Shown piece after piece: positions 1,587 to 26,680 of a stretch of 39,873 bases of DNA. The stretch spans positions 1 through 39,873 of the forward strand of contig JANYFU010000149.1 of assembly GCA_025359665.1 (NCBI GenBank), written 5' to 3'. The position numbers were made by a program, and so were the translations under genes. This DNA is from Caulobacteraceae bacterium. Its GTDB lineage: Bacteria; Pseudomonadota; Alphaproteobacteria; Caulobacterales; Caulobacteraceae. The number at the start of each line of letters is the position of its first letter. Positions within the stretch are counted from its first letter, which is position 1. The notes under the pieces were generated by a model. It was not told the DNA's origin and searched no databases. It saw nothing but the letters and a program-made list of their open reading frames with translations.

Positions 1587-4415
1587 CTAAGGACCGGTGA
1601 TTCGCAGCTCGTCATAGGTCCGATGGTCGGAATCTATCCAGCCGAACCGCTCACGGATCTCCGATAGGGTGCGCCTGTAGATATCGACGTCGACGTAGTT
1701 GGCGTGGCGAGGGCTGTCGACATAGGCGACCTGCCCCCGCAGATTGGGCCGGTGATCGCGTTTCATCGCGGTCCAGGCCGCCAGGTCCTGGCCGGACTGG
1801 GTGATGTAGGCGTCCATGGCCGCCATCTGGGCCATTTCGTCGAAGCGCTGATAGCCGGCCGAAGCGAACTCGATGAACCCCAGCACCGCCAGCCCCCGCA
1901 GCGAGCGGTGGAAGATGTTCAGATAGAGCTCGGGATGCCCGTGGTTCCAGGTGAACAGGTTCTCGTCCAGAAACGGCAGGCGGTATTCATAGCCGGTGGC
2001 GCAGAGCACCAGGTCGAAGGTCTCCTCCGACCCGTCGGCGAAGATCGCGCCGGTGGGCGTGAACCGCGTGACGTCCCTTTTGCCGATCAGGTCGCCGTGG
2101 GCCAGGTGGTGCAGCACCTGGGAATTCATGATCGGGTGGGATTCCAGCAGCTTGTGATCGGGCGCCGGCAGGCCGAAGCGGGTCAGGTCGCCGGTCAGGG
2201 CGTCGACCATCTCGCTGGGATCGGTGGGTAGGGCCACGCCGCGCGGAGGACGCACCGCGCCAGACAGGAAGAGATCGGTCGGCACCCCGAACACATGCTT
2301 GGGCACGAAACGGTATCCACGCCGGACGCTGATGAAAGCCGCGTCGGCCGTGCGGGCGGCGTCGCAGGCGATATCGACGCCGGAATTACCCGCCCCGATG
2401 ATCAGCACCCGCCGGCCCTTGAAATCGTCGGCCGACCGGTGGCTGACGCTGTGGCGAACTTCGCCCCGGAAAGTCTCCAGCCCCGGATAGGCGGGCATGG
2501 CCGGATGCCAGGTGACGCCGTTGGCGCAGACCAGGCCCTCGTAGTGACGCGTCGAACCGTCGCCCAAGGTCACCTGCCAGCCGTCGGCCGCGTTGTCGCC
2601 CAAAGGCTCGGCCCTGACGACCTCGGTGTTGAAGGCGATGGCCTCGCGCAGGCCGAACACCTCGGCGAACTGGCGGATGTAGGCGTGGATCTGCCGGTAA
2701 TCCGGATAGTCGGGATATGACGCCGGCATCGGCAGGCCAAAGAACCCGGAAGTATGTTTCGATGAGATGAAGTGCGCCGATTCATACATCGAGGTGCCTG
2801 GGTTCTCGATGTCCCAGATCCCACCGACGTCGGAGTGCCGCTCGAAGTGGTCATACGGCAGACCCGCCAGGCGGAAGGCCCTCGCCGCCATCAGCCCGCC
2901 CGGCCCCGCACCGATGATGCAATATTTGCCGCGCGCTTCGACAGGCTTGGGACGTGTGCGGGTCGTGTCGGGGCGCAGATCGCTGGCCCCGAGCGCCGCG
3001 TAGACCCGGGGCCGGTTGGCGCGCAGCCACAGGCCGAAACCCAATCCGAAGACGAAAATCACCCCGTAGGCAACGGGTGTCCAACCGATCCAGGCCACAT
3101 GGACCGGCGTCAACAACGGAAAGTTCCAGATCACCAGCACGCCGGCCCCGATCAGACCCACCGTCCCGGCCACCGGCGCGGCCAGATCGAGCCAGGTGCG
3201 AGAGGTCGCCCGCCGCGCCAGCCAGACCACGATAGCCACCGCCGCCAAGCCTTGCAGCAGGATAATTCCTAAGGTGGAGAAGCCGATCAGGGCCGGCATC
3301 ACCACCCGGTAGGGTTCCAGCTTGGCCAGGCCAAAGGCCAGCACGCCGAGGCCCGTGGCGACGGTGACCGTCAGGCTGGCGTTGGAAGGAGCGTGGCGCA
3401 CCAGATGGAAGCGGCCCAGAGCCGGCGGCAGCAGCTTCTCGCGCCCCAGCGCAAAGATGTAGCGGCTGGCGGCGTTATGCATGGCCAGGTACGAGGCCAG
3501 GATCGAGGTGCAGACCAGGACACCGGTGATCGCCCCGGCCGCGCCGCCGACGAAATGCGATGACAGGCCAAGCATCAGTTCGCCGCCCTGAGCCTTGGCC
3601 ATCGATTGGGCCTTGTCAGCGCCCATCGAACCGACCGCGACCCAGGCGGTGAGCAGATAGAACAAGCCAATCAGGCTGACCGAGGCGAAGGTGGCGGCGG
3701 GAATGGCCTTGGTAGGCTCGCGCGTCTCCTCGCCATAGAGAGCCGCCGATTCGAAGCCGATGAACGAAGTGAAGGCGAACATCACGGCGATGGCGAAGCC
3801 GTGTACGAACACCACGTGGGGATCAAACGAGGCCAGCGGAAAGGCGTCCCATCCCTTGGTCACCACCACCGCCACATCGAAACCGCCCAGGATGGTGATC
3901 TCACCGATCATCAGCGCGCCCAGAACCCGCGACGACAGGTCGATCGAGCGATAGCCGAGCACGGCGGTGACAGCGGCCCCGATCCCAGCCCACACGAACC
4001 AGGCTTCGTGGATACCGACATGGGAGAACACCAGGTCGGCGAAATAACCGAAGGCCACCGCCAGGCCGAGGGCGAACAACACATAGGTGACCATGGCGAT
4101 GAAGGCGGCGCCCACACCAACCACCTTGCCCAGACCCTGGACCACATAGGTATAGAAGGCGCCGGTGCTGACGATGCGCCGGCTGATGCGGGCATAGCCG
4201 ACCGCGAAACACAGCAGGATCACCGCCGCCAGCAGGAAGGCGCCCGGCATGCCCGCGCCGTTGCCCTGGGCCAGGGCGATGGGCAGATTGCCGATCATCG
4301 CCGCCAAGGGCGCGGCGGCGGCCACGACCAGGAAAACGATGCGCCCCATGGTGAGCTCGCGCCGGGGCTTGCCGGTCTCGTAGAGCCGCGCGGCGGCTCT
4401 CAGCATTTCATCCAT
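1587..4415 (-). CDS. APC-family amino-acid permease fused to a flavin-containing monooxygenase
   Basis: One 942-residue frame holds two complete domains. Residues 1 to about 468 are an APC-superfamily permease with about 12 hydrophobic segments, the STGAFYTYV stretch near 83-91 and the family motif around 221-240 (FES..LYGEETREPTKAIP). A charged, Pro/Arg-rich linker (about 469-497) leads into a cytosolic flavin monooxygenase. That part has a FAD-binding GAGPGG at 502-507, an FMO-like fingerprint FRGEVRHSVSH at 649-659, an NADPH-binding GAGNSG at 674-679 and the CATGY motif at 805-809. The fingerprint ends in His where classic FMOs have Tyr/Phe and Baeyer-Villiger enzymes have Trp. The domains are in frame with no stop between them. 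Import of an amino acid or amine coupled to its N-, S- or C-oxidation is inferred. The esterase gene lies 30 bases upstream on the same strand. The ATG at 4415 has only a weak GGGG-type ribosome site. Confidence 0.88.
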   Translation of the reverse strand: MDEMLRAAARLYETGKPRRELTMGRIVFLVVAAAAPLAAMIGNLPIALAQGNGAGMPGAFLLAAVILLCFAVGYARISRRIVSTGAFYTYVVQGLGKVVGVGAAFIAMVTYVLFALGLAVAFGYFADLVFSHVGIHEAWFVWAGIGAAVTAVLGYRSIDLSSRVLGALMIGEITILGGFDVAVVVTKGWDAFPLASFDPHVVFVHGFAIAVMFAFTSFIGFESAALYGEETREPTKAIPAATFASVSLIGLFYLLTAWVAVGSMGADKAQSMAKAQGGELMLGLSSHFVGGAAGAITGVLVCTSILASYLAMHNAASRYIFALGREKLLPPALGRFHLVRHAPSNASLTVTVATGLGVLAFGLAKLEPYRVVMPALIGFSTLGIILLQGLAAVAIVVWLARRATSRTWLDLAAPVAGTVGLIGAGVLVIWNFPLLTPVHVAWIGWTPVAYGVIFVFGLGFGLWLRANRPRVYAALGASDLRPDTTRTRPKPVEARGKYCIIGAGPGGLMAARAFRLAGLPYDHFERHSDVGGIWDIENPGTSMYESAHFISSKHTSGFFGLPMPASYPDYPDYRQIHAYIRQFAEVFGLREAIAFNTEVVRAEPLGDNAADGWQVTLGDGSTRHYEGLVCANGVTWHPAMPAYPGLETFRGEVRHSVSHRSADDFKGRRVLIIGAGNSGVDIACDAARTADAAFISVRRGYRFVPKHVFGVPTDLFLSGAVRPPRGVALPTDPSEMVDALTGDLTRFGLPAPDHKLLESHPIMNSQVLHHLAHGDLIGKRDVTRFTPTGAIFADGSEETFDLVLCATGYEYRLPFLDENLFTWNHGHPELYLNIFHRSLRGLAVLGFIEFASAGYQRFDEMAQMAAMDAYITQSGQDLAAWTAMKRDHRPNLRGQVAYVDSPRHANYVDVDIYRRTLSEIRERFGWIDSDHRTYDELRITGP

Positions 4416-4445
4416 GAACAGCCCCGGGGGTCATGGGACCACCTC

Positions 4446-5384
4446 TTACCGGGCTGGAGCCGCAGCGTCAGCGTCACGCCACAGCCAACGCAGGGATTCG
4501 GCGAAGATCGCCCCGCCGTGGCGAAGCGTGTGGCCACCCGTGCCGAACTCGAAGCGGACGTCATAGCCGGCGAAATCCAGGGCGTTGGCCATGGTCTGGT
4601 TCGCCAACGGCCAGTCGCCATAGACGTTGCGCCCGTCGTTGGCGCCGTCCTGGATCAACACCCGGATCGGCTTGCGCGGCGTAGAGCGCACCAGGAACGG
4701 ATAGTTGTGGCCGCCGTCGATATTGACGAACGAGCCGCAGTGGCTGAGCACCCCGCCGAAATTGTCGGGGAAATTCCAGGCGACGGTGAAGGCGCAGATA
4801 CCGCCGCTGCTGATGCCGCAGATCGCCCGGCGGGCCGGATCGGCGGTCAGGGTCAGGCCCTCGGCGGCCTCGACGAAGGGCAGCAAATCCTCGATCAGGA
4901 ATCGGCCATAGGTCGAGGTCAGGGGATCATATTCGGCCCGGCGTTGATCCCAGTCGGGCTCGTCGCCGGCGCGGCGTCGGCCGGGATTGACGAACACGGC
5001 CACCGTGGGACCGATTTCCCCCTGGGCGCGCAGACTGTCGAGGACCCTGGTCGCCCGCACCGGGCCGCGCCGGGCCTGATAGCCGCCGCCGTCATTGAAC
5101 ACGATCAGATTGGCCGGCGCCGAGCGGTCGAGACCGGCGGAGGCGTAGACAAAGACGTCGCGCCGTGTCCCGGCAAAGATGGCGCTGTCATCCCAGCCGC
5201 GATGGGCCGAGACCGTTCCGGCTGGCGTATCGTCATCCGGATAAGCTTCGGCACAAGGGTGATAAGGCGCGTCGCCAGGGTGGTTCAGCGACAACCGGAA
5301 ATCCGCCGAGCCACGGCCGTTCATCTCCAGAGACGGCTGCCGATCGAGGCCCAGGGCCGCATAGGTTTCAAGGCTCATCGGCAT
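4446..5384 (-). CDS. Putative esterase, enterochelin-esterase-like alpha/beta hydrolase
   Basis: A 312-residue protein of the PF00756-type esterase family (Fes/IroE/esterase D-like). The nucleophile elbow GISSGG puts the catalytic Ser at 192. A downstream DGANDGRN stretch can supply the Asp and the late GGH the His of the triad. No signal peptide is evident, so it is probably cytosolic. The start is placed at ATG 5384 (MPMSLETYAAL) because GGAG lies 10 bases upstream; the frame stays open further upstream to 5555 but that stretch is low-complexity Arg/Ser and overlaps the divergent DUF2252 gene. It is 30 bases upstream of the permease-monooxygenase fusion on the same strand, so the two are probably co-transcribed. 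Hydrolysis of an ester made by, or fed to, the monooxygenase is a plausible but unproven role. Confidence 0.85.
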   Translation of the reverse strand: MPMSLETYAALGLDRQPSLEMNGRGSADFRLSLNHPGDAPYHPCAEAYPDDDTPAGTVSAHRGWDDSAIFAGTRRDVFVYASAGLDRSAPANLIVFNDGGGYQARRGPVRATRVLDSLRAQGEIGPTVAVFVNPGRRRAGDEPDWDQRRAEYDPLTSTYGRFLIEDLLPFVEAAEGLTLTADPARRAICGISSGGICAFTVAWNFPDNFGGVLSHCGSFVNIDGGHNYPFLVRSTPRKPIRVLIQDGANDGRNVYGDWPLANQTMANALDFAGYDVRFEFGTGGHTLRHGGAIFAESLRWLWRDADAAAPAR

Positions 5385-5505
5385 GGGTGGCGATCTCCGG
5401 TCTGGCGGAGCCAATACGCTCGCTTTGGAACGATGTCCTCGCAAGAGCTTTGTCTCTTTCGGTTGATTCAAGCCATCGCGACCCCGGCCCTTCTGGAGAC
5501 CGCTA

Positions 5506-6699
5506 TTGCCGACTACCCCCGACGACCGCGCGGCCAGACTGGCGCGCACCCGCAACCTGAAGATGGCGCGCTCCGCCCACGCCTATGTGCGCGGTAGCAC
5601 GGTGAAGTTCTACGAGTGGTTGGACCAGAGCGCCGGCAAGGTTCCGGAGGGTCCCGCGGTATGGATTTGCGGCGATTGCCATGTCGGCAATCTTGGGCCT
5701 TTGGCCGACGCCAAGGGGCGGGTGGCGGTGCGGATTCGCGACCTCGATCAGACGGTGATCGGCAATCCAGGGCATGATCTCATTCGCCTGACCCTGTCGC
5801 TGGTATCGGTCGCCCGGGGCTCCAATCTTTCGGGAGTGACGATGGCGCGAATGGTTGAACAGTCGATCGCCGGCTATGAGGCGGCGCTGAACGCCGACGA
5901 CGACAAACAGATCGACAGGAGCTACCGGCCAGAGACCATTCAGGACCTGCTGGAACGGTCGGTGAGACGGCGGTGGCGTCACCTTGCCCAGGAGCGGCTC
6001 GATGGCGTCAAGCCGGTCATCCCGCTGGGCAGGAAGTTCTGGGCGCTGGACGCACCGGAAAAGGCGGCGCTCGAAACCCTGTTCGCCGGGGACGAGGTGC
6101 GCGCCATGGTGACCAAACTGCGTGGCCGCGACGCCGGCGATCGCTTGGAAATGGTCGACGCCGCCTATTGGATGAAGGGCTGCAGCTCGCTCGGCCGGCT
6201 GCGCTTCGCGGTGATGATGAGGATCGGCGAGGGCGACGGGGCCAGCACCTGCCTGATCGACGTCAAGGAGGCCGTGACCGCCGCGGCGCCGCGGTCGAAG
6301 ACGGCGACGATGCCCCGAAGCAACGCCGTTCGCGTGGTCACGGGGGCGAGGGCTTTGTCGCCGAGTCTTGGCGAACGCATGGTCGCCGCCCGGCTGTTGG
6401 AAACCGGTGTCGTGCTCAGGGAATTGACGCCACAGGATCTGAAGATCGAAGTCGAGCGGCTCGCGGAAGACGAAGCCCTGGCGTTAGCGAGGTATCTCGC
6501 CGGAGTGGTGGGCCGCGCCCACGGCCGGCAGATGGACCCGCCCACGCGGGAGCGATGGCGCAACGATCTGCTCAGAGCGCACAGCTCGACAGTCGATGCG
6601 CCTTCCTGGCTGTGGTCGAGCATCGTCGAACTGCTGTCCGTCCACGAGGGCGCCTATCTCGACCACTGCCGGCGTTTCGCCCTATCGGCGGCCGCCTGA
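5506..6699 (+). CDS. DUF2252 family protein
   Basis: A 397-residue protein recognised by the DUF2252 signature blocks: RSAHAYVRGST (about 22-32), ICGDCHVGNLG (about 54-64), RDLDQT (78-83) and GNPGHDLIRL (86-95). The HGDxHxGN-like and DxD-like motifs recall kinase-fold (aminoglycoside phosphotransferase-like) proteins, but the family has no established function. The start is a TTG at 5506 with GGAG 7 bases upstream; the next Met is residue 20, which would leave too little sequence ahead of the first conserved block. It is divergent from the esterase across 121 bases and is followed on the same strand by an iron-permease-family gene. No membrane segments are seen. Confidence 0.85.
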   Translation: MPTTPDDRAARLARTRNLKMARSAHAYVRGSTVKFYEWLDQSAGKVPEGPAVWICGDCHVGNLGPLADAKGRVAVRIRDLDQTVIGNPGHDLIRLTLSLVSVARGSNLSGVTMARMVEQSIAGYEAALNADDDKQIDRSYRPETIQDLLERSVRRRWRHLAQERLDGVKPVIPLGRKFWALDAPEKAALETLFAGDEVRAMVTKLRGRDAGDRLEMVDAAYWMKGCSSLGRLRFAVMMRIGEGDGASTCLIDVKEAVTAAAPRSKTATMPRSNAVRVVTGARALSPSLGERMVAARLLETGVVLRELTPQDLKIEVERLAEDEALALARYLAGVVGRAHGRQMDPPTRERWRNDLLRAHSSTVDAPSWLWSSIVELLSVHEGAYLDHCRRFALSAAA

Positions 6700-6788
6700 A
6701 GGCCGTCCAGGCGCGTTGCGGAACGAGAAGTCTCGGTATCCATTCTCCGGATGGCCCAGCCGGCCGAGCAACCTTGGAGACGCTGTTG

Positions 6789-7136
6789 ATGGAAGAACTT
6801 TTCGAGACCGCCGCAACCAGAATCTCGCGGGCGATGGGTCGCCCCATGACCTTCGTTGTCTGCTGCCTGCTGGTGCTCATCTGGGCGGCGACCGGGCCGA
6901 TCTTCCATTTTTCGGACACCTGGCAGCTGGTGATCAACACCGGTACGACGATCATCACCTTCCTGATGGTGTTCCTGATCCAGAACAGTCAGAACCGCGA
7001 GGGCGAAGCCCTACAGGCCAAGTTGGATGAACTGATCCGGGCCCTGGAAACGGCCGAGAACCGTTTCATCGGCCTGGAGCAACGCACGGAACGTGAAATC
7101 GGCGAGATGCGCGCCGAGCATGAGGCCGAGAGCTAA
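6789..7136 (+). CDS. Low-affinity iron permease family protein
   Basis: A 115-residue inner-membrane protein with two hydrophobic segments (about 20-37 and 46-65) joined by GPIFHFSDTWQLVIN, then a charged, Glu/Arg-rich helical tail likely to form a coiled coil (about 68-115). The blocks WQLVINTGTTIITF, MVFLIQNSQNR and KLDELIRA are hallmarks of PF04120 proteins, annotated as low-affinity iron/copper permease by distant fungal homology; actual metal transport is unproven for bacterial members. The start ATG 6789 has GGAG 9 bases upstream. The frame is open much further upstream, antisense-like within the DUF2252 gene, but that sequence has no protein-like composition. It converges on the RND pump gene with a 19-base gap. 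Confidence 0.85.
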   Translation: MEELFETAATRISRAMGRPMTFVVCCLLVLIWAATGPIFHFSDTWQLVINTGTTIITFLMVFLIQNSQNREGEALQAKLDELIRALETAENRFIGLEQRTEREIGEMRAEHEAES

Positions 7137-7155
7137 CGGCGATTGATGTCAGCGA

Positions 7156-10100
7156 TCACCGCCGCCGACCGCGCGACACCGCAGCGTAAGCCGCCGGCAG
7201 GACCAGCAGCACCAGGGGCGCGCCGGCCAGCAAGCCGGAGATGATGGCGATGGCCAGGGGCTTCTGCATGGCCGCCCCCTCCCCCAGGCCCAGGGCCAGG
7301 GGCGAGAGGGCGAGGATGGCGATCACCGCCGACATCAGGATCGGCCGCAGGCGCGCCCGGCCGGCGGCCAGCAGGTCCGCGTGGTCCGCGGGCTCGGTCA
7401 GGTTCACTTCCGCGAAGAAGAAGATCGCCAGTTCGGTGACGATGCCGACCACCATGGTCAGACCCATAAGGGCGGAAATATTAAGCTCGGTCCCGCTTGC
7501 CCACAGGCCCACGAACACGGCCGAGGCGGCGAGCAGTACAACCGTCAATACACTGACGACCACGGTCCATCGCTCAAAGAGATAGAGCAATAGCAGGGCC
7601 ACCAGCAGGATGGCCGAGGCGAAGACTACCGCCAGATCGGCGAACGAACTCTGCTGCTGAGCGTAGAGGCCGCCATATTCCACGCGAACGCCGGCCGGCA
7701 GGGCGATCCCGGCCACGGTCTTGCGGACATCGGCCATCGCCGATCCCAGGTCGCGGTGTTCGAGGCGTGCTGTGACGTCAACGAACGGCTGCAGATCCTC
7801 GCGGTTGATCTGCTGTTCGCCCGGTTCGATGGCCAAGGCGGCGACGCGCGACAGCGCGACATCGTGGCCGTCGGGCGCGCGCAGGCGCAGATCGGCGATG
7901 GCGGCGATGCGATCGCGCAAATCGGCGGGCGCCTGGACCCGGATTCCCACCAGCACATCCCCGGACCGGACCGAGGTGGCGACCTGACCGCCGATCAACT
8001 CGCCCAGCTGCCGAGCCACGTCATCCGACGTCAGGCCTTCGAGGGCGGCGGCCGGACGATTGACCTTGACGCCGATGGTGTCGCCGGCCACGCGCAACCC
8101 ATCGACCACCTCAACGAGCCCACGAACCTTGCCGATGGCCGGGGCGACCAGGGCGGCCGCCTGGCGAAGGGCGGCCGGATCCTCGCCGAACAGCTTGATC
8201 TCCACCGGCTGAGGCACGGCGGTGAGGTCGCCGATCAGGTCTTCCATCAGCTGGGCGGTCTCGATGCCGAGACCCGGAACCTGGCTTTGAATTTTCTGGC
8301 GAATCTCGCTCATCACCGTTTCCACGTCGCGCCGCTGGCCACTTCGCAGGTGGATGAAGAAGTCGCCTTCATCAGCCTCGGTCAGGCCGCCGCCGAGCTG
8401 GACGCCAGTCCGGCGCGAATAGCTGTCGACGTCCGGCGTGGCGCGGATGATGGCCTCCGCCTGCCGCAACAGACGATCGGTGTCGCTGAGCGCCGCCCCG
8501 GGGCTGGCCTTGTAGTCGAGAACGAAGCCGCCCTCGTCCATCCGGGGCATGAAGCCCGAACCCAGCTGGGTGTAGGCGACGCCGCCGACGGCCAGCAGGA
8601 CGCCGGCCACGAGACCCACCGCCAGGATCGGACGCGACAGCATAGACCCCGACAGCCGGCCATGGATCGCCGTGAGGCGGCGCATCATCGATCCGGTCCT
8701 GTCGGCCGCCTCTAAGTCACGCCGGCGAAGCCAGCTTCGGGCCAGAACCGGTGCGACGAACAGGGCGAACAGCAGCGACAGCATCAACGCCGCCGCCATG
8801 GTCACCGCCAGGGCCTTGAAGAACCCCCCGGTCACGCCGGTGAGAAAAGCCAACGGGGCGAACACCACGATGGTGCTCAAGCTGGAGCCGATCAGCGGCC
8901 GGGCCATCTCGGCCGCGGCGGTCAGGACGCCGTGAGAGCCCCGGTCATCAATCTGGTCGGGCGCCTCCTGCAACCGGCGCATGACGTGTTCGAGCATCAC
9001 CACCACGTCGTCGACCACCAGACCCACGGCGGCGGCCAGGCCCCCGAGGGTCATCATGTTGAAGCTCATATGCAGCACCAACAGCAGCAGGCAGGCCGCG
9101 GCGAGCACCGCCGGCAGCATCAGGGCGGTGATCAGCATCAGCCGCGCCGACCGCAGGAAGGCGAACAGCACCACCCCGGCGAGCAGCGCGCCGATGACGA
9201 TGGCGTCGCGCACGCTGACCGCGGCGGCGGTGACCAGTTCTGACTGATCATAATAGGTTGCGATCTTGATATCGGCGGGTATCCGCCCGGCGAACCCGGC
9301 CAGTCGGGCGCGAATGGCCTTGACCATGGCGACGCTGTCAGCGTCCGGAGACTGGCGGATGTTGATCAGCACCGCGTCGCGGCCCTGGGCGGTGACGCGG
9401 GTGAAGGCCGGGACGGGCGCGAGATGAATCTGGGCGACGGCGCTAAGCGGCACGACGCCGGCCCCGGCGGTGGTTCCGGTCTTGACCACGATGGCGCCGA
9501 TGTCGGCGGCGCTGTCCAGACGGCTGTCGACCAGGGTCTGGTAGAGCCGATGGCGGTCCTCCAGTCGGCCGACGGCCGTGACGGTGTTGCTGGCGCCGAT
9601 GGCCCGGACCACGTCGTCGATGGAGACACCCAGGGCCGCGAGCCGGGCCGGGTCGATGGTGATCCGGTATTCGGGCGCGGCGCCGCCCAGCACATCCACC
9701 GACGCGACGCCGGGTACCGAGGCGATCAACGGTCGTAGCTGAAGCTGAGCAAAGGCCCGCAGACGGATTGGGTCGCGGCTGGCTGAGTTCAAGGCCAGAC
9801 CCAGAACCGGAAACACCGTCGGGTCTATCCGCCGCGCGGTGAACCGCACTCCGGGCGGCAGATCAGGCAGGGCGGCGTTGATCGCGGCCTGGGTCTGAAG
9901 AGCGGCCTGAGCCATGTCGTGGCCCCAGGCAAAGGTCAGGGCGATTTCGGCCGAGCCGCGGCTGGTGGTTGAGCGGATGTGCTCGACCGCCGGAACGCCG
10001 CGCAAGGCCTCCTCCAGTGGTCGCGTCACCTGGATCGCGGTCTGGTCGGCGGCGCGGTCGCCAGCGTCCACCGAAACCACCACACGCGGAAAATCGATGT

Positions 10101-10209: not shown

Positions 10210-11252
10210 GGGGCGTCACCCGCGCCGGGCTTGGCCGGCGTGGCCTCGCGGATGGCCATGCCGTCTTCCAGGGCGGCGGCCCCATCGACGACGATCCGCT
10301 CGCCCGCGACCAGGCCGGCGGTGACCTCGACCGCGTCACCGCTTTCCGCGCCCAGGGAGACGTTGCGGCGATGGCCGGCGGCTTCCTTGACGGTGAAGAC
10401 GTAGGGCTGCTCACCTTCATAGACCAGGGCGGCGCGGGGGATCAGCGGCACGCCTCTGTGCTGGCCAAGCACGATCTGGCCCTGGACCGGCTCGCCGGGC
10501 GCGAAGGCGCCGGCGGGCGCGCGGACATAGACGGCGGCCAGGCGGGTCTGGGGATCGAGCCGCGGATCGACGGCGAGCACCGTTCCGTCGTGGACCACGC
10601 CCCCCGACAGCGATGTGAGTCGAACGGTCAGCCCGGGTCGCAGGCCCACCGCCTTTCCAGCCTCGACGCCGAGGCGAATCCTAAGTCCGTCAAGAGAGCC
10701 GATCCTGGCCACAACCGCCCCCTGGACGGCAACGGCGCCAGCTTCCACCACCAGGCTCTCGACCACACCCGCCGCCGGGGCCTTGAGAAGCAAGGCCGCG
10801 CCGGAGCGCGCCTTCAGAGACTGGGCGGCGGCGTCGGCGGTCTGGGCGGTGGCGCGGGCGGTTTCGACCTCGGCGTCGCTGGCGAGGCCGGCGGCGCGCA
10901 AACGCAGCGCCCGGGCGCTGGCCGCGTCCGCCGCCGCCGCGTCGGTCTGGGCCTTGCCCAGATCAAGGGCGCTGGCCGGGGTCGGCCGCAGCACCGCCAC
11001 CACCTGGCCAGCCGTAACGCGCGTTCCGGCCGGAGCGAGGACCTTGGTCAGGATGGCCTCGACCGGCGCCGTCAAGGATCGCTCGGCGTCCGGCGAAAAC
11101 TCCGCCGCGCCATAGACGGCCAGGGTCTGGTCCGCCGAACCGGAGGTCACCACCACGGTGGTCACCGAGGCCACGGGTTTGATGTCGGCGTCGCCCTCGC
11201 TCCTGGCGCAGGCGGCGGTGACGAGCAGCAACAGCAGACCGATGCGCTTCAT
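10206..11252 (-). CDS. RND efflux periplasmic adaptor (membrane fusion protein), lipoprotein
   Basis: A 348-residue HlyD/AcrA-type adaptor. The N-terminus is a lipoprotein signal with a lipobox ending at Cys15 (VTAAC), predicting lipid anchoring on the periplasmic side. An Ala/Asp-rich alpha-helical hairpin occupies about 105-150 and is flanked by lipoyl half-motifs (VTAPVEAILTKVLAPAGTRV near 60-80; LLKAPAAGVVESL near 155-167). Beta-barrel and membrane-proximal segments follow, including IPRAALVY. It overlaps the outer-membrane factor by ATGA upstream and the pump by GTGA downstream, so translation of all three is probably coupled. Confidence 0.92.
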   Translation of the reverse strand: MKRIGLLLLLVTAACARSEGDADIKPVASVTTVVVTSGSADQTLAVYGAAEFSPDAERSLTAPVEAILTKVLAPAGTRVTAGQVVAVLRPTPASALDLGKAQTDAAAADAASARALRLRAAGLASDAEVETARATAQTADAAAQSLKARSGAALLLKAPAAGVVESLVVEAGAVAVQGAVVARIGSLDGLRIRLGVEAGKAVGLRPGLTVRLTSLSGGVVHDGTVLAVDPRLDPQTRLAAVYVRAPAGAFAPGEPVQGQIVLGQHRGVPLIPRAALVYEGEQPYVFTVKEAAGHRRNVSLGAESGDAVEVTAGLVAGERIVVDGAAALEDGMAIREATPAKPGAGDAP

Positions 11253-12568
11253 GGGGTCCCCCTGGTTTGAGCCGGGCGAGGAAGCGGCGCGCCGGTCGCC
11301 AGTTCCAGGGCCACGGTCTGTTCGGCGATGGCCTGGTCGAGGGCCGCCAAGGTGATCTGCTTATCGATGACGCTCTGGCGGCCGGCCTCGGCCACCGCCC
11401 GCGCCACATCCCCGCCGGCGGCCGCCGCCTCGGTCCGGCCGGCCAGAGCCTCCAGCGGTCCGATCGTATCGGCGATCTGTCCTCTCTGGCGGCGCGCGAT
11501 GGCGATCCTTTCCACCAGATCGGCGATCTCCGCCCGGGCGGCGAACACCCGCGCCGCGTATTCGGCCCGCAGTTGTTCGCGCGTCGCTCGCGCGATGGCG
11601 ATGCCACCGGAATTGCGGTTCCAGACCGGCAGGGTGAAGTTGACCGCCGGACCGAGGGTGCGATTGTCAGCGGTGTCCCTGGCGGCGGCCAGGGTAAGCT
11701 GCAGGCTCGGAAAGGCGTCCAGCGCCGCCTTGCGCACGGCGGCTTCCTGGCTCTGGTAGCCGGCTTCGAGCGCCTTGAGATCGAGCCTTGAGGCGCGAGC
11801 TTTGTCGAACAGCGCGCCGGCGTCGAGCGGGGTAGCCGAAACCGGGTCGGCGGCGATGGTGATCCGTGTGCCGGGCGGCAGGCCCAGCAAGGCGTTGAGC
11901 GACCCGCGCGCCGCACCCAGATCGCGTTCGCCCTGGCGGGCCCGGTCGGCGGCGTCGGCGGCGGCCAGACGCCGGGCCTCGACGTCGTCGGCTTTCAAGT
12001 CTCCCCGGGCCGCCGCGGCCAGCACCCGCGCCAGGGCGTCTTCAGCGGCCGCCTGGCTTCGGTCCAGCAAAGTTGAGGCGCGTTCCAGTCCGACCACCCG
12101 CGCGCCGAGCAGCCGGGCCTGGCCGGCGGTTTGCCATTCGCGCCAGGCCAGATCCAGCCGGACCTGCGCCCGCGCGGCATGTTGACCAGACTGGACGAGA
12201 CCTCGGTCGCGGAAGGCGGCCAGGTCATAGATCAGCTGAGCGCCGAGGCCGTCGAACATGTCTGGGCCGGTCAGCAGCTTGTCGAAACTGAGGTTGAAGA
12301 CCGGATCGGGCAGCAGGCCGGCGGCAAACACCTGGGCGTCGGACACGCCGGCCTGGAGGCGGGCGGCCTTCAGGTCGGGATTGGTGACAACGGCGATCAG
12401 GCCTAGCGCGCGAGGCGTCAGGGGTTTGGACAAATCGACCGCGGATCCGGCGAGAACCGGTTCGACGCTCGTCGCCAAAGGCGCCGGCCCATAGGCCGCG
12501 CAGCCGCCCACGGTGACGATCATGATCCCGAGAAGTGTTCGGATGAAGGAATCGTAACGGCGGTTCAC
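11249..12568 (-). CDS. TolC-family outer-membrane efflux factor, lipoprotein
   Basis: A 439-residue outer-membrane factor with two internally similar alpha-helical halves rich in Ala, Arg and Gln, as in the TolC/CzcC family. A signal with lipobox VGGC places the acylated Cys at residue 23. Recognisable blocks include LDLAWREWQTAGQARL (about 135-150), SLNALLGLPPGT near the middle and NFTLPVWNRNSGGIAIARA (about 315-333), the last typical of CzcC-like factors. The start is GTG at 12568; GAGG lies 13 bases upstream, a loose ribosome site, and a later start at Met16 would shorten the signal excessively. It is the first gene of the operon; the 85-base gap to the GNAT gene upstream presumably carries the promoter. 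Confidence 0.9.
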   Translation of the reverse strand: MNRRYDSFIRTLLGIMIVTVGGCAAYGPAPLATSVEPVLAGSAVDLSKPLTPRALGLIAVVTNPDLKAARLQAGVSDAQVFAAGLLPDPVFNLSFDKLLTGPDMFDGLGAQLIYDLAAFRDRGLVQSGQHAARAQVRLDLAWREWQTAGQARLLGARVVGLERASTLLDRSQAAAEDALARVLAAAARGDLKADDVEARRLAAADAADRARQGERDLGAARGSLNALLGLPPGTRITIAADPVSATPLDAGALFDKARASRLDLKALEAGYQSQEAAVRKAALDAFPSLQLTLAAARDTADNRTLGPAVNFTLPVWNRNSGGIAIARATREQLRAEYAARVFAARAEIADLVERIAIARRQRGQIADTIGPLEALAGRTEAAAAGGDVARAVAEAGRQSVIDKQITLAALDQAIAEQTVALELATGAPLPRPAQTRGTP

Positions 12569-12653
12569 GCTAGTCTTCTATCCTCGAAGCGACGCCGATC
12601 GAATGTCACCTCGATTGCAAAATCCCAATGTACAGATCGGCGCGAACAATGAC

Positions 12654-14657: not shown

Positions 14658-15034
14658 GGCGAGGGCTGATACCGGCGACCGTCGCCGCCTTGATCGGCTC
14701 CGCCGCGCTCGCCCAGCCAACGGGGCCTCTGCCGACCGGCGATCCGGCGGCTGGGGAAAATCTGTTCTACGACCGCTGCGCCATCTGCCATGTCGCTACT
14801 GGCGGCGGCCAGGGACCAAGTCTGGATGGTCTCTATGGCCGCAAGGCCGGGTCGGTGGCGGGGTTCAGCTATTCGGAGGCCCTGAAGGCGTCGGGCCTGA
14901 CCTGGACCGGACCGGCGCTGGACCGGTTCCTGACCAATCCCGGCTCCGCGGTTCCGGGAACGGCCATGCCGATCCAAGTCCCCGACGCCAAACAGCGGGC
15001 CGATCTAATCAGCTATTTCGCCGCGCATCGGTAG
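14654..15034 (+). CDS. Periplasmic class I cytochrome c
   Basis: A 126-residue monoheme cytochrome. A signal peptide (about 1-20, ending AALA) is followed by the heme-attachment motif Cys42-Ala-Ile-Cys45-His46 and a likely axial Met105 in PGTAMP. The GPSLDGLYGRKAGS and FSYSEALKASGLTW blocks match the cytochrome c2/c550-like family used as small electron carriers. It overlaps the preceding sugar dehydrogenase by four bases (ATGA), so it is the likely electron acceptor of that enzyme. Its last 26 bases overlap the convergent sarcosine-oxidase-like gene. Confidence 0.93.
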   Translation: MRRGLIPATVAALIGSAALAQPTGPLPTGDPAAGENLFYDRCAICHVATGGGQGPSLDGLYGRKAGSVAGFSYSEALKASGLTWTGPALDRFLTNPGSAVPGTAMPIQVPDAKQRADLISYFAAHR

Positions 15035-16211
15035 ATAGAGTTTCGAGACCGAAAGGGGCGAGCAAGGACACTGGGTCTCCGGCGGCCAGTTCGGCGACCA
15101 GTTCGCCGATGGCGGCCGAGTGCTTGAACCCATGGCCGGAACAGGCGGAGACCAGGATCACACGCTCACGCCCCGGGTCGCGGCCGATCAGGAACCGGCT
15201 GTCCGGCGCCATCGTATAAATACAGGCCGACGATCTCAGGCATCGGTCGGTGACGCCCGAAACCCGGCCGGAGATGTGTCGGCCGAGCATTGTTCGCGAC
15301 GCCGCCGGCCCGATCTCCTGGGACTGGGCTTCGGGTCCCGGTAAGGGTTCGTCGAAGCGTTCGTCGGCGATCTTGACGCCCGTTGTTCCAGGCAAAATCG
15401 GGAAACCGTAGAACCAGTCCTCGGCTCCAGCGCCATGCATCCAGATGAACACTGGAAAGCGTTCCGGCGCGAACTCAGCCGGATCGACGGGTTCGAACCA
15501 GTGCATCATCTGGCGGTAGGTCGACACGCTCGCAGCGAGTCGATCATCCTCCGAGATCCCGGACACCCAAGGACCGGCGGCCACCACCACCTGATCGGCG
15601 CAATAGTCCCCCCTGTCGGTGGTCACTCTCACGCCATCGACCTCGTCGAGGATTTTGAGAGCTGTCTCCCCGGTTCGGATCACGGCGCCATGCCGCCTGG
15701 CCAGGGCGATCTGAGCCGCCACGCAGCGCTCCGGTCGCAACAGCCCAGCGCCGGGCTCGAAATAGACCGTTTCATCGCCCCTAAAGGTGAGCATCGGAAA
15801 TCGGCGACCGGCCTCGTCGGGCGTGATCAGTTCATGCGGGATGCCGAATCGCCGCGCGGCGCCGATGGTCTTGCGAACAAAATCCTGCTTGCCGAGGTGC
15901 GCCGCACCACCATCGATGCCGCCGATCACCAGCGCCCCCGTCTGTAGCATCAGGGTCTCGCCGGTCTCGGCCTCGATCTCACGCCACAGATCATGGGCGC
16001 GCAAGGCCAGCGGCACATAGTCGTCGCCCTCTCCGATAGCCTGGCGGGTGATGCGGCTCTCGCCGTGGCTCGAGCCCTTGTCGTGGGGCGGATGATGGCG
16101 ATCCAACGCGATCACCCGCAGACCGCGCTTCGCCAGATGATAGGCGCAGGCGGACCCGGCCGCGCCAAGGCCGATTACGATCACATCGGCGATTTGCGTC
16201 CCGGCGCTCAA
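15009..16211 (-). CDS. Monomeric sarcosine oxidase / N-methyltryptophan oxidase (SolA)-like flavoenzyme
   Basis: A 400-residue FAD amine oxidase of the MSOX/MTOX/pipecolate-oxidase family. The Rossmann motif GLGAAGS (14-20) is followed by GSSHGESRITR (46-56), a family signature. The covalent-flavin Cys is Cys330 in SACIYTMAPDSRF, and SGHGFKHSAAIGE (358-370) is the second signature. Family members oxidise N-methyl or cyclic secondary amino acids, releasing H2O2. The start is a TTG at 16211 overlapping the putA stop as TTGA, indicating translational coupling to proline catabolism. That suggests N-methylproline, proline betaine breakdown products or pipecolate as candidate substrates (inference). 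The 3' end overlaps the convergent cytochrome gene. Confidence 0.9.
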   Translation of the reverse strand: MSAGTQIADVIVIGLGAAGSACAYHLAKRGLRVIALDRHHPPHDKGSSHGESRITRQAIGEGDDYVPLALRAHDLWREIEAETGETLMLQTGALVIGGIDGGAAHLGKQDFVRKTIGAARRFGIPHELITPDEAGRRFPMLTFRGDETVYFEPGAGLLRPERCVAAQIALARRHGAVIRTGETALKILDEVDGVRVTTDRGDYCADQVVVAAGPWVSGISEDDRLAASVSTYRQMMHWFEPVDPAEFAPERFPVFIWMHGAGAEDWFYGFPILPGTTGVKIADERFDEPLPGPEAQSQEIGPAASRTMLGRHISGRVSGVTDRCLRSSACIYTMAPDSRFLIGRDPGRERVILVSACSGHGFKHSAAIGELVAELAAGDPVSLLAPFGLETLSTDARRNS

Positions 16212-19200
16212 TCCTCGAGGCCCAGCAAGCTAGCGTTGCCGCCGGCCGATGTGGTGTCCACCGTCCAGGTGCGTTCGACGGCGAAGCGCGGCAGGTAGTG
16301 CGGACCGCCGGCCTTGGGCCCGGTTCCGGAGAGCCCCTCCCCGCCAAACGGCTGCACGCCAACCACAGCGCCGGTCATCGAGCGGTTGATATAGAGATTG
16401 CCGACCCGGGCGGTCCGCCGAACAGCGGCGGCCACGCCGGCGATCCGGCTGTGGACGCCAAGGGTCAGGCCATAGCCGGACGCCATCACGCGGCGCAGGG
16501 TGTCCTCCAAGGCTCCCGACTTCCAGGTGACGATATGCAGGATCGGCCCAAAAACCTCGCGATCAATATCCTCGATGGCGTCCAGGCGGATCAGGGTGGG
16601 GGGCATGAAGTGACCGCGATCCAGACCCGAAGGCAGAGCGGTCGCATGAACGATCGAGCCACGCCAACGATCGAGATGATCTCGCAACGCCGATAGAGCC
16701 GCGGCGTCGATCACCGGGCCGATGTCGGTGGCGGGCTCAGCCGGATCGCCGATGACCAGTTCGTCCATCGCGCCGGTCAGCATCTCCAGCGTGTGGCCGG
16801 CGATATCCTCATGCAGGCAGAGCAGCCGCAGGGCCGAGCAGCGCTGGCCGGCGCTGAGGAACGCCGAAGTGATCACATCGGCAACCACCTGCTCGGGTAG
16901 CGCGGTCGAATCGACCAGCATGGCGTTTAGACCGCCGGTTTCAGCGATCAGCGGAACCAGCGGCCGGCTTTCGTCTTCAAGCAGCGCGCGGGCGATCCGC
17001 CGGGCGCTCGCTGTAGAACCGGTGAAAGCGACCCCAGCGATACGCGGATCCGCCACCAGAGCCTGCCCAACCGCCGGGCCGCCGGGAACAAGGCACAACA
17101 CATTGCCCGGAACGCCGGCCTCCAGCGCCAGGCGAACGGCGGCGGCGGCGATCAGCGGCGTCTGCGGCGCCGGCTTGGCCACGACGGCGGCGCCCGCCGC
17201 CAGCGCGGCGGCGATCTGGCCCAGAAAGATCGCCAGGGGGAAATTCCACGGGCTGATACAGGCGAATACGCCCCGCCCTCTCAGGGTCAGTTCATTGAGT
17301 TCGCCGGTCGGCCCCGGCAACCGCTGGACCGTGAAATGGCGCCGGGCCTGCGCGGCATAGTAGCGGCAGAAATCCACGGCCTCGCGCACCTCGCCCAGCG
17401 CGTCGGCCAGGGTCTTGCCGGCCTCGCGCGTCAACAGGGCCATCAGCCGATGGCGGTCACGCTCCAGCAGATCGGAGAGCCGTTCCAGAATCGCCGCCCG
17501 GGCATCCGCTCCCAAGTCGTCCCAGGCAGGCTGGCCATCGGCGGCGACTGCGACGGCCCTGGCGACATCGGCAGGCGCGGCCTCGATGACCGAGCCGGGA
17601 GAGCGGGCGCTGTCGGCGGGGTCGGCAAGGATACGCGCGGCGCCGCCGCCTTCCACACCGCCGATTATCGGCCGGGCGGTCGCCGGGACGTCCCAGGCCT
17701 GGCGCATCGCTGACAACAGCGGCGCGACCACGGTAAGTTCCGACAGATCGAGTCCTGCGGCGTTGCGGCGATCCGGCGAATAGAGTTCGGGCGGACGGAC
17801 AATGGCCGGATGCGATATGAGACCGGTCGCGATAGCCTTTTCCACCGGGTCGGCCAGCAGGTCTTCATCGCTGAGATGACGATCGGCGATCTGGTGCACG
17901 AAGCTGGTGTTGGCGCCGTTCTCCAGCAACCGCCGCACCAGATAGGCGAGCAGATCACGGTAGCCCCCGACCGGGGCGTAGACCCGCGCCGCCAGGCCGC
18001 GACTGGCCATGAGCCCCTCGTAGAGTCCGTCGCCCATGCCGTGCAGGCGCTGAAACTCGAAATCGGACCGATCACCCGCCCATTGCAGCACCGTGGAGAC
18101 GGTCAGGGCGTTGTGGGTGGCGAAGGCTGGAAACAGCGACGGCTCGCCCAGTAGAGCCCGGGCGCAGGCCAGGTAGCTGACGTCGGTGCCGGTCTTGCGG
18201 GTGAAAACCGGGTAGTCGGCCAGGCCCCGCTCCTGAGCGCGCTTGATCTCGGTGTCCCAGTAGGCGCCTTTGACTAGGCGGACCATCAGCCGCCTCCCAG
18301 TGGCCTCGCCAAGCGCGGCGGCCCATTCGATCACGGCGGGCGCGCGCTTCTGATAGGCCTGGATCGCCATGCCAAGCCCGTCCCATCCGGCCAGCGACCG
18401 ATCGCGGGCGGCGCCCTCGATGATCGACAGCGACATGTCCAGCCGCTCGCTTTCCTCGGCGTCGACGGTCAGACCGACGCCGCCGACCTTGGCGACCCGC
18501 CCCAGTTCCACAAGCCGGGCGGTCAGTTCGGGTACGGCGCGGGCGGCCTGGAACGGCTCATAACGTGGGTGCAGGGCCGACAGTTTCACCGAAACGCTGT
18601 CCTGGGCGAACACGTCGCCCCCCGGCCGGCTGGATCTCCCGACCGCGCCGATCGCGGTGACATAGGACTGGAAATAGGCCTCGGCGTCGGAGGCCGCCCT
18701 CGCCCCCTCGCCCAGCATGTCGAAGGAATAGCGGAAGGCGCGATTGGCGCCCCGGTCGGCCCGCCGCAGGGCTTCGTCGATGTCGCGGCCGAGCACGAAG
18801 GCCTGGCCCATGGTCTGCATGGCGCCAGCGACCGCCACGCGCACGGCAGGCTCTCCCAACCGCGCGACCAAGCCGCGGACGGTGCCGGGCGTGGCCTCGG
18901 CAAGCGACTGGGCGAGTATCAGACCCAGGGTGGCGCTGTTGACCAGGGCCGAATCGGCGCCGCCGAGGTGGGCGCGCCAGTCGCCCTTGACCAGCTTGTC
19001 CTTGATCAAAGCGTCGGCGGTCCCGGCGTCCGGCACGCGGAGATAGGCCTCCGCGAGCCCGAGAAGCGCCGCGCCCTCGTCGCTGGAGAGGCTGTATTCC
19101 CGCAGAAACTGGTCGACCCACCCGGCCCGGCCCGGCGCCCGCAGCTCGGCGAGTAGGGCCGAAGCCTGAGCCAGCACGTCGATCCGCTGATCGTGGGTGA

Positions 19201-19303
19201 GCCGCGCGGCGCGGCTGAGCGGCGCCAGGGCCGCCGGCTCGTCGATCCGGTAAAGCGGCGCCAGCGATTTGCGGGCCGCGTTCAAGGAAACGGACAGGGG
19301 CAT
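16208..19303 (-). CDS. putA: Bifunctional proline dehydrogenase / L-glutamate gamma-semialdehyde dehydrogenase
   Basis: A 1031-residue PutA that converts proline to glutamate in two steps. The N-terminal proline dehydrogenase barrel (about 150-480) contains VKLSALHPRYE (239-249), RLVKGAYWDTEIKRAQERG (342-360) and RRLLENGANTSF (457-468). The aldehyde dehydrogenase domain (about 540-1010) has SPWNFPLAIF (684-693), Glu788 in AETGG and catalytic Cys822 in SAGQRCS. There is no N-terminal ribbon-helix-helix domain, so this protein should not self-repress. The start is ATG 19303, supported by AAGGA 8 bases upstream; the frame continues 16 codons further without a better ribosome site. It is followed by the overlapping sarcosine-oxidase-like gene and is divergent from a small secreted protein gene. 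Confidence 0.97.
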   Translation of the reverse strand: MPLSVSLNAARKSLAPLYRIDEPAALAPLSRAARLTHDQRIDVLAQASALLAELRAPGRAGWVDQFLREYSLSSDEGAALLGLAEAYLRVPDAGTADALIKDKLVKGDWRAHLGGADSALVNSATLGLILAQSLAEATPGTVRGLVARLGEPAVRVAVAGAMQTMGQAFVLGRDIDEALRRADRGANRAFRYSFDMLGEGARAASDAEAYFQSYVTAIGAVGRSSRPGGDVFAQDSVSVKLSALHPRYEPFQAARAVPELTARLVELGRVAKVGGVGLTVDAEESERLDMSLSIIEGAARDRSLAGWDGLGMAIQAYQKRAPAVIEWAAALGEATGRRLMVRLVKGAYWDTEIKRAQERGLADYPVFTRKTGTDVSYLACARALLGEPSLFPAFATHNALTVSTVLQWAGDRSDFEFQRLHGMGDGLYEGLMASRGLAARVYAPVGGYRDLLAYLVRRLLENGANTSFVHQIADRHLSDEDLLADPVEKAIATGLISHPAIVRPPELYSPDRRNAAGLDLSELTVVAPLLSAMRQAWDVPATARPIIGGVEGGGAARILADPADSARSPGSVIEAAPADVARAVAVAADGQPAWDDLGADARAAILERLSDLLERDRHRLMALLTREAGKTLADALGEVREAVDFCRYYAAQARRHFTVQRLPGPTGELNELTLRGRGVFACISPWNFPLAIFLGQIAAALAAGAAVVAKPAPQTPLIAAAAVRLALEAGVPGNVLCLVPGGPAVGQALVADPRIAGVAFTGSTASARRIARALLEDESRPLVPLIAETGGLNAMLVDSTALPEQVVADVITSAFLSAGQRCSALRLLCLHEDIAGHTLEMLTGAMDELVIGDPAEPATDIGPVIDAAALSALRDHLDRWRGSIVHATALPSGLDRGHFMPPTLIRLDAIEDIDREVFGPILHIVTWKSGALEDTLRRVMASGYGLTLGVHSRIAGVAAAVRRTARVGNLYINRSMTGAVVGVQPFGGEGLSGTGPKAGGPHYLPRFAVERTWTVDTTSAGGNASLLGLED

Positions 19304-19338
19304 GGCGCGAGTCCTTCGAAGTTTGGCGCCGTCGCAAT

Positions 19339-19365
19339 TTGGCCGCGACAAAGGGCTGTTATAAA
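19339..19365 (+). promoter_or_regulatory. Possible promoter for the small secreted protein gene
   Basis: In the 87-base gap between putA and the divergent gene, TTGGCC (19339-19344) and TATAAA (19360-19365) are 15 bases apart and lie 25 bases before the start codon at 19391. The spacing is short for a sigma-70-type promoter, so this is a weak call made by eye. Confidence 0.25.
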
Positions 19366-22076: not shown

Positions 22077-22913
22077 TCAACGACCCAGTCGCTGCTTGAG
22101 GAGCCTGGCGTTGCGCAGGACGATCGGAGGAAGCAGGTCGGCCACCAATTCACGGTTGCGCACCGCCGCATCGACCCTGTCGGCGGTGCCGGGCCGCACC
22201 TTGAACTGGGTGGTCTTGTCCTGTTTGGCTTCGGACCATGTCGACGTGTAGTAGTAGAGGGCTATGGATTTCCGCGTCACACCAGCGGGGTGATTTACAG
22301 ACTCTGGGTTGCCATGATAGCTCATATCGGTTGTATTGAATATTACACATCGATTGAACACCGGTATAACAGATTTTATAGACTGAGACATGTCCTTATT
22401 CCAAAGTTCTAATCGTCCGCCGTAGGTTTCTTCCCAGTCTTTATTCAGGTATATGAGTACATTTATCCGCCGCTCTAAATTCATCACCTTGTGGTGGTTG
22501 AAATCCACGTGAACCGACAGGTGTCCACCCTGTCCGATTTCGTGAAAGCCCGCCCCCAGAAAATAAGGGTCCGGGATAAGCCCCTTGATATTAGTGATAT
22601 TTTCGAGAACGCGGATAAAAGGTTTTGAATTGAATGAATAGAATAACCGCCGCACGGGATCAGTCAAAGCGTCTGGGTTGAATTGAGCCTTATATCGCTC
22701 CTGGTCGCGGTCAAAATATTCATCCCCTTCCTTCAGTTTAGAAGGGAATTCAGAAAGACACAAATCAAGAACTTCCGGAGGAAGGAAATCATCGATCACG
22801 ATATGTGGAAACGGTGAACCATTCTGATAGGTATCCGTGAACTCAAGACCTTTGTTTCTTGTGTCACTTGATACATATCCTGTTTCACCATCCATTTCGA
22901 ACAGGTAAGGCAC
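22077..22913 (-). CDS. 2-oxoglutarate/Fe(II)-dependent oxygenase, prolyl-4-hydroxylase-like
   Basis: A 278-residue cytosolic protein with the double-stranded beta-helix iron triad: His135-x-Asp137 in SVHVDFNHH and His200 in MSYHGNPE, with Arg214 (GVTRKSIALY) placed to bind 2-oxoglutarate. The intervening RRINVLIYLNKDWEETYGG matches the core of 2OG-FeII_Oxy_3 enzymes. Relatives hydroxylate proteins or small molecules; in a polysaccharide locus a sugar, a lipid carrier or an acyl group is possible, but nothing in the sequence decides this. The start is GTG 22913 with AAGGA 9 bases upstream. The gene is visibly AT-richer than its neighbours, with ATA and AAT codons, suggesting a separate origin. 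Confidence 0.85.
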   Translation of the reverse strand: MPYLFEMDGETGYVSSDTRNKGLEFTDTYQNGSPFPHIVIDDFLPPEVLDLCLSEFPSKLKEGDEYFDRDQERYKAQFNPDALTDPVRRLFYSFNSKPFIRVLENITNIKGLIPDPYFLGAGFHEIGQGGHLSVHVDFNHHKVMNLERRINVLIYLNKDWEETYGGRLELWNKDMSQSIKSVIPVFNRCVIFNTTDMSYHGNPESVNHPAGVTRKSIALYYYTSTWSEAKQDKTTQFKVRPGTADRVDAAVRNRELVADLLPPIVLRNARLLKQRLGR

Positions 22914-23062
22914 GATCAGTAATCCTTATGGTTCGAGCGCGCGATGGAGGCAGAGCTCTTTCAAACCCTGGGGAGCATACCGGTCTCGACGCGCGATGAA
23001 AAGCCAAATGCCGCGGCGCCGCAATGGCGACGGGCGGAAGTCGGTGGATCGGCGGCTTAATG

Positions 23063-24013: not shown

Positions 24014-24037
24014 ATCGCCGCCATCATCTCCGGGTCG

Positions 24038-24856: not shown

Positions 24857-25153
24857 AGGGGCCTCTATCTAACCATCCAGTTTACAGGGATGGACGTTCG
24901 CCCCCCAGGCTAACGCACCAGCTTTCGCCGGTTCGGATTCGAGGTGACAGATCAAGGCCCCTCTCGACCTCAACGCGATCAGACGAGCAGGTTCTGAAGG
25001 CCCAACCCAAGTTCGTCAAGGGCGTACGAAACGCGTCGCCAGCGCGAGTCGCCGTCCCGCGAAAAAATTGGGCGCCCGGGATTCTCTCCGTTCCCCATCG
25101 GCTTGGCTCCTGTAAGAGCCTTCCAACCGATCTCCCCGTCGCGAGAGCTGCTC
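24857..25153. other. Divergent intergenic region, methyltransferase / flippase
   Basis: About 297 bases between two divergent genes. It must carry both promoters, but I see no convincing -35/-10 pair, hairpin or repeat. Frames here are short and Arg-rich and are not gene-like. If the flippase starts at the earlier in-frame TTG (25103) the gap is 246 bases. Confidence 0.5.
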
Positions 25154-26623: not shown

Positions 26624-26660
26624 CTCTTGGCGCGCATCCGTTCAAATGACCCCAATCTCG

Positions 26661-26680
26661 CCTCTGATATCCTCTGATAT
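26661..26680. repeat. 10-base tandem duplication before the polymerase gene
   Basis: Two exact copies of cctctgatat abut at 26661-26670 and 26671-26680. The second copy runs into TATAAT (26678-26683), a possible -10 box, 50 bases before the polymerase start codon. No matching -35 hexamer is evident. Confidence 0.7.

Follow-up and report, generated by a model that had tools for sequence, protein, structure and literature searches.

Does a single gene of a Caulobacteraceae bacterium really encode both a transporter and a flavin enzyme and, if so, what might such a protein do? The question is raised by contig JANYFU010000149.1 (assembly GCA_025359665.1), of which the whole stretch of 39,873 nucleotides, hereafter the window, was analysed. 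Here a minus-strand open reading frame (ORF) of 942 aa, with its ATG at 4415 and its TAG at 1587-1589, joins an APC-type permease to a flavin monooxygenase (FMO). The initial annotation had proposed exactly this joining in one frame, naming no strand, and Pfam bears it out for both halves: the permease half matches PF13520 (AA_permease_2, residues 38-446, 75.2 bits, cut-off 27) and PF00324 (residues 40-410, 58.2 bits, cut-off 24.6), and the FMO half PF00743 (FMO-like, residues 497-852, 179.9 bits, cut-off 22) and PF13738 (residues 500-690, 58 bits, cut-off 30). There is no stop between the two domains, as had also been claimed, and the twelve segments credited to the permease reappear in our hydropathy profile, all within residues 26-464. 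By the same hydropathy reading, the relative from Agrobacterium (locus L090) likewise has 12 segments, and for three others (L031, L033, L112) a 13th was called at about 497-517, where the FMO has its GxGxxG region. Frame 1 of the plus strand across 1587-4415 holds six stops, and an antisense or chance ORF is ruled out by the Pfam matches together with the conservation among relatives.

Fused relatives of the window protein were recovered at identities of 66% (genome G065), 65% (G034), 63% (G035), 62% (G013), 49% (G1694) and 48% (a plasmid of Agrobacterium sp. T29), so that homologues are by no means always two separate proteins. Within the genus (16 genomes searched) the full fusion is present in the window's own genome (G000) and in G013; within the family (199 genomes searched) it is present in five, namely these two together with G034, G035 and G065; and in a second family of the same class, that of G749, one of 247 genomes has it (G1694, over residues 9-938). 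Among 248 genomes of the family of G791, no fusion was found at E values up to 1e-110. Samples of the class (385 genomes, E up to 1e-60), the phylum (398 genomes, E up to 1e-75) and the order (398 genomes, queried with the first 522 residues), which overlap one another and the 199-genome family set, each returned only G000 and G035 as fused. Of 72,556 plasmid records, 1,170 matched and a single one, that of Agrobacterium sp. T29, covers at least 80% of the query; this complete plasmid is typed as conjugative, and its gene of 966 aa (47.9% identity over 99%) is annotated merely as 'amino acid permease'. A scan of contig collections gave three fused loci, all of them those of G065, G013 and G035. 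Altogether seven fused genes were found, spread over at least two families, and across the families carrying the fusion the permease half is 40-61% identical. Six of the seven are intact, and the copy of G013 (L032) has a single in-frame TGA at its residue 626, which is either a sequencing error or the mark of a decaying gene. Very long open frames were also listed for some distant FMOs and permeases; the four of them that were inspected, of 1447 (G165), 1053 (G1488), 944 (G362) and 977 (G865) aa, were not counted as fusions because ORFs of usual domain length (463, 437, 512 and 483 aa, respectively) cover all or most of the match.

That the two genes were brought together by an assembly error, or joined by chance, is a practically negligible possibility: the window does belong to an assembly of 634 contigs and one relative does carry a TGA, but the identical junction recurs in independent assemblies, including a contig of 5,553,470 bases in G034 and the complete plasmid, which rules out the assembly error that the initial annotation had allowed for. 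At the codon level, the six pairs of four copies, pooled, differ by 0.27, 0.23 and 0.43 at positions 1, 2 and 3 of the permease half and by 0.21, 0.18 and 0.38 in the FMO half, and in the linker, too, position 3 differs more than positions 1 and 2. The permease-FMO fusion is a real, rare and conserved architecture.

What kind of enzyme is the C-terminal half? The two GxGxxG/A Rossmann motifs expected of class B FMOs are in place (GAGPGG and GAGNSG), as is ATGY, and to that extent the claim that every nucleotide-binding motif is present stands; it needs correcting for the FMO motif, FxGxxxHxxx(Y/F)(K/R), which in the window fusion reads FRGEVRHSVSHR, with H replacing Y/F. Among seven members of its clade (six fused genes and the FMO of Rhodococcus erythropolis R138), this place holds H in two (window, L112) and Y in five (L031, L033, L090, L152, L091), and the final K/R place holds M in L152 and V in L091. 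According to PMC7570161, such an H was seen just twice within the type I group. With the class B FMOs of that type I group, the window protein shares the two Rossmann motifs, FxGxxxHxxx(Y or H) and ATGY; it is unlike ordinary class B FMOs in its N-terminal 12-segment transporter and in the H of its FMO motif. Type IIb enzymes (FMO-E/F/G), which PMC7570161 characterises by FxGxxxHxxx(H/y/f)P together with a roughly 160-aa N-terminal domain, are a poor fit, since R rather than P follows the H and the N-terminal part is a permease. The type I Baeyer-Villiger patterns, given in the fingerprint passage of PMC10682829 as FxGxxxHxxxW(P/D) and GGxWxxxx(F/Y)P(G/M)xxxD, fail as well, with H instead of W in the first and GGIWDIENPG at the second. 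Scores lie far under the cut-offs of the NCBIfam models for ArsO (NF040505, 108.5 bits against 425) and trimethylamine monooxygenase (NF058570, 87 bits against 675), and the closest solved structures by sequence are 8z12-8z17 ('Flavin-dependent monooxygenase') and ancestral mammalian FMOs, ancestral FMO5 among them.

The permease half is similarly generic. Its profile score above the curated cut-off and its roughly 12 hydrophobic segments place it in the AA_permease_2 family, and it resembles other APC permeases (PF13520/PF00324) in both respects, differing from them by its C-terminal enzyme. It scores 58.6 bits with the amino acid transporter subfamily TIGR00909 (cut-off 556.8) and far under the cut-off of every NCBIfam transporter model that it matched; the solved structures matching it, weakly by sequence, are 7p9u (a cystine/glutamate transporter) and 3gi9 (MJ0609). 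Judged by profile, then, both halves are ordinary representatives of their superfamilies, neither reaching a function-specific model.

A comparison comes from plasmid pCRE138 of R. erythropolis R138, where the counterparts of the fusion halves, an FMO (54% identity) and an APC permease (42%), are separate genes about 3.8 kb apart in one cluster. A short-chain dehydrogenase/reductase (SDR), an enoyl-CoA (coenzyme A) hydratase, a nitronate monooxygenase and a TetR-type gene lie between them, and the cluster also includes AMP-binding, FabG and aldehyde dehydrogenase genes. In a tree of the FMO half (29 hand-picked rows) the seven fused genes and the R138 FMO form one clade with support of 100/100, and a previous 56-row tree that lacked G1694 likewise united six fused genes with R138, whose FMO is a long branch in both. 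The trees omit the duplicate loci L001, L002, L034 and L036 as well as matches under 34% identity, and their length floor was about 300 aligned residues for the FMO and 350 for the permease. The R138 cluster thus shares the FMO clade and a related permease with the window fusion and differs in keeping them unfused; set against the fusion, this split gene pair is a 'Rosetta stone' case. Together with the conserved fusion, it lends indirect support to the earlier idea that import and oxidation are physically coupled, and the fusion itself suggests that transport and oxidation of some small molecule are linked.

The reading that we favour, and regard as probable, is that of a bifunctional inner-membrane protein, whose permease takes up a small organic compound that its FMO oxygenates in the cytoplasm. 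The N-terminal 12-segment permease would import the compound, and the C-terminal class B enzyme, using flavin adenine dinucleotide (FAD), reduced nicotinamide adenine dinucleotide phosphate (NADPH) and O2, would add one oxygen to it, on N or S or through a Baeyer-Villiger reaction; a peroxyflavin intermediate is described as common to class B enzymes in PMC10682829. In most relatives, the SDR of the same gene group, beside the divergent TetR gene, may perform an adjacent redox step, and in the window an esterase would occupy the place that the SDR holds elsewhere. The benefit of the fusion might be that oxidation traps the imported compound. We infer an N-in/C-in topology, because an even number of segments puts both permease ends on one side and the need for NADPH puts the FMO in the cytoplasm, as well as an inward direction of transport and a substrate common to both halves.

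The gene neighbourhood bears on this reading in several ways. An SDR gene abuts the fused gene in five of the seven loci (all except the window and L032). In six (all except the window) the fusion unit has a divergent TetR gene as its neighbour. At 20 loci with a stand-alone FMO of this type, an SDR abuts the FMO in 10 (L092, L113-L116, L119, L120, L153, L159, L160), and a TetR gene is next to it in 7 (L113-L118, L153) and an AraC gene in 4 (L092, L120, L159, L160); some references for these counts come from counted loci themselves (L033, L112 and L114 for SDR and TetR, L120 for AraC). The FMO gene shares 4 bases with the SDR gene in L152 and L153, and 8 in a Burkholderia plasmid. Of 27 loci with this FMO type (L032 excluded), 7 gave a permease match at E 1e-30, namely six fused loci and R138. 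FMO and SDR, accompanied by a TetR or AraC regulator, seem to make up the older unit. Since no such permease was found in the stretches read around the stand-alone FMOs and yet half of them abut an SDR, as do most of the fused genes, this module probably gained its transporter later, in one line, either first as a neighbour or straight as an N-terminal fusion, the two orders being indistinguishable.

A divergent TetR-type gene could be read in favour of export, the permease half expelling the FMO product or a toxic compound and the module serving detoxification or secondary metabolism. TetR regulation is common for detoxification genes, and antiporter models, far under cut-off, are among the NCBIfam matches of the permease in R138. 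Members of the APC group are, however, mostly uptake systems or exchangers, and the neighbours look catabolic both in R138 (CoA ligase, enoyl-CoA hydratase, aldehyde dehydrogenase) and around the Agrobacterium fusion (aldehyde dehydrogenase, pyrroloquinoline quinone dehydrogenase, PaaI thioesterase and a MetA-type channel). This catabolic look favours import for degradation, and we consider export rather improbable.

Which compound would be imported? In the window, an alpha/beta-hydrolase gene of the esterase type (PF00756) lies directly upstream of the fusion, and we infer that the two are co-transcribed; the called start of the esterase is probably too far upstream. Its presence raises the prospect of a Baeyer-Villiger pathway, in which the SDR yields a ketone, the FMO turns it into an ester and the esterase cleaves the ester. 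The short gap to the esterase and the SDR partner in the relatives are in keeping with such a pathway, and the convergent neighbour of the fusion unit in G034 is a PtlE-like enzyme of Baeyer-Villiger type (720 bits, below the model cut-off of 1100). FMO5 is known for the Baeyer-Villiger reaction, and its ancestral form is among the best structural matches. Against these points stand the failure of both fingerprint patterns, the low likelihood that a plain ketone would be carried by an APC permease, and the distribution of the esterase: with a 312-aa stretch as query, it was found at the locus only in the window's own genome among the five Caulobacteraceae genomes with the fusion, a relative (42%) being encoded on another contig in G035 and the other three giving no match, and it was not found in the L090 and L152 stretches. 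As a conserved partner of the fusion the esterase is accordingly unsupported. The SDR, the window esterase and the PtlE-like enzyme do fit a ketone pathway, although the fingerprints are absent, and we regard a Baeyer-Villiger role of the FMO half as doubtful. An amine substrate is fitted by the APC carrier and by the nitronate monooxygenase of R138. Class-III aminotransferases, present in L033, L090, L119, L120 and L121 and, by similarity, in L161, could together with that nitronate monooxygenase hint at amine chemistry, although their places are not conserved and nothing firm follows.

How intimately would the two halves work together? A stronger form of the favoured mechanism is a channel, through which the compound would leave the inner mouth of the permease straight for the FMO pocket and be oxygenated before mixing with the cytoplasm; oxidation would then trap it and make uptake one-way. 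No earlier link of this kind between APC carriers and flavin monooxygenases is known to us, and we judge the channel unlikely. It is quite possible, if somewhat short of an even chance, that the halves merely serve one pathway and were fused for equal dosage or for tethering the FMO to the membrane, the substrate diffusing freely, which is compatible with much of the bifunctional reading that we favour. For this simpler arrangement speak the variable linker, its nonsynonymous divergence (dN) exceeding that of both domains (0.47-0.74 against 0.20-0.37 over the six pairs), and the separate permease and FMO of R138; yet an operon alone suffices for equal dosage, and the fusion has been kept in at least two families despite the divergence of its permease half. 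In length, the linkers of four copies (window, L031, L033, L112) agree to within one residue.

Several observations weigh against the bifunctional reading itself. Conservation is lowest in the linker, whose dN/dS is high in some pairs; in the pair of window and L112 its dN of 0.58 is close to a synonymous divergence (dS) of 0.61, which disfavours a precise interface there. An AlphaFold2 model of the fusion from a three-row alignment (mean predicted local distance difference test score 33.9, predicted template modelling score 0.29) is too poor for judging contacts between the halves. The approximately unbiased test does not reject one origin of the fusion (p-AU 0.39 for the FMO half and 0.32 for the permease half), but the best trees of both halves require two changes. 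The window fusion has neither SDR nor TetR beside it, and in its genome, which is 90% complete, the SDR of G034 has no close copy, the best of 69 matches reaching 36%. For neither the permease half nor the R138 permease does a substrate-specific NCBIfam model come near its cut-off. Finally, at the 20 stand-alone FMO loci (L092, L113-L121, L153-L162) no such permease was found within the stretches read, which extend about 9 kb per side at most and are much shorter in some; the reaction of the FMO would accordingly not depend on the permease.

Other transporter-enzyme fusions exist, for example of the LplT-Aas or MprF type, which likewise combine a membrane carrier with an enzyme that serves the same pathway, though from other carrier and enzyme families. 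Our literature searches on permease-FMO fusions found no APC-FMO fusion described, and those on FMO-SDR-esterase and FMO-SDR-AraC clusters, on structures 8Z12/8Z13 and on Agrobacterium sp. T29 gave nothing on this architecture. The large fusion survey of PMC4921024 states that fusions often involve transporters and counts the avoidance of toxicity among the reasons; the word 'permease' is absent from the main text of that survey. The APC-FMO fusion is a new combination of known parts, not found described in the literature searched. A conserved transporter-enzyme fusion is a strong hint that both parts act in one pathway, and it offers a handle on bacterial FMOs and on APC permeases of unassigned specificity, whose substrates are usually guessed. 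The split Rhodococcus version, together with the common SDR and regulator, makes the pathway testable in Agrobacterium sp. T29 and R. erythropolis R138. If oxidation truly traps the imported compound, the protein would offer a simple model of how uptake can be coupled to O2-dependent metabolism, and it might be of use as a whole-cell biocatalyst.

Table 1. The fusion gene, its parts and motifs, and the adjoining esterase gene in the window
Feature	Position	Strand	Basis or remark
Whole fusion gene, 942 aa and stop	1587..4415	minus	ORF; Pfam; 6 other genomes/replicons with full-length fused relatives (one has an in-frame TGA)
APC-type permease part, residues 1-464	3024..4415	minus	Pfam PF13520 and PF00324; hydropathy
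Charged junction/linker, about residues 466-496	2928..3020	minus	Alignment of copies
Class B flavin monooxygenase part, residues 497-942	1590..2927	minus	Pfam PF00743 and PF13738; motifs
FAD-binding GAGPGG, residues 502-507	2895..2912	minus	Motif reading
FMO motif FRGEVRHSVSHR, residues 649-660, H at the usual Y/F place	2436..2471	minus	Consensus as given in parts of PMC7570161 and PMC10682829
NADPH-binding GAGNSG, residues 674-679	2379..2396	minus	Motif reading
ATGY motif, residues 806-809	1989..2000	minus	Motif reading
Alpha/beta-hydrolase (PF00756 esterase) gene upstream of the fusion	4446..5555	minus	30 bp from its stop to the fusion ATG

Between the esterase stop and the fusion ATG (window 4415-4448) there is a ribosome-binding-like GAGG and, after it, ATGACCCCC..., a frame of eight codons. 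The TGA of this frame overlaps the start of the fusion, and the frame could reflect translational coupling, or chance. On the other side of the esterase ORF, a plus-strand gene for a DUF2252 protein (5506-6699; PF10009, 245 bits) diverges from it and overlaps its called 5' end by 50 bases. The rest of the window, in which part of the ORFs of the last region were scanned, holds a glyoxal-oxidase/kelch type protein (1-1383, minus; PF07250, PF13964), secreted-looking by eye and cut by the contig end; a PutA-type proline dehydrogenase/aldehyde dehydrogenase (15009-19351, minus; 1047 aa) with a DAO-family FAD oxidoreductase downstream, the two overlapping by 4 bases; and, at 22077-34229, genes of polysaccharide type, namely a flippase (PF13440), Wzy_C and a UDP-sugar dehydrogenase, along with a methyltransferase, a 2OG-Fe(II) oxygenase and a match to a sulfotransferase that stays below cut-off.

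Two observations at other loci may be added. In L090, genes annotated as DUF3445, dimethylamine monooxygenase subunit DmmA and PDR/VanB oxidoreductase (4932-7384) end about 1.6 kb before the Agrobacterium fusion, with two TetR genes between. At L119, a minus-strand ORF of 656 aa (10663-12633) beside the stand-alone FMO combines an MFS match below cut-off (residues 16-343) with an SDR (390-577). It may be another fusion of transporter and enzyme in the vicinity of this FMO type; a separate MFS-like gene close to the L033 fusion shares about 30% identity with its MFS part.

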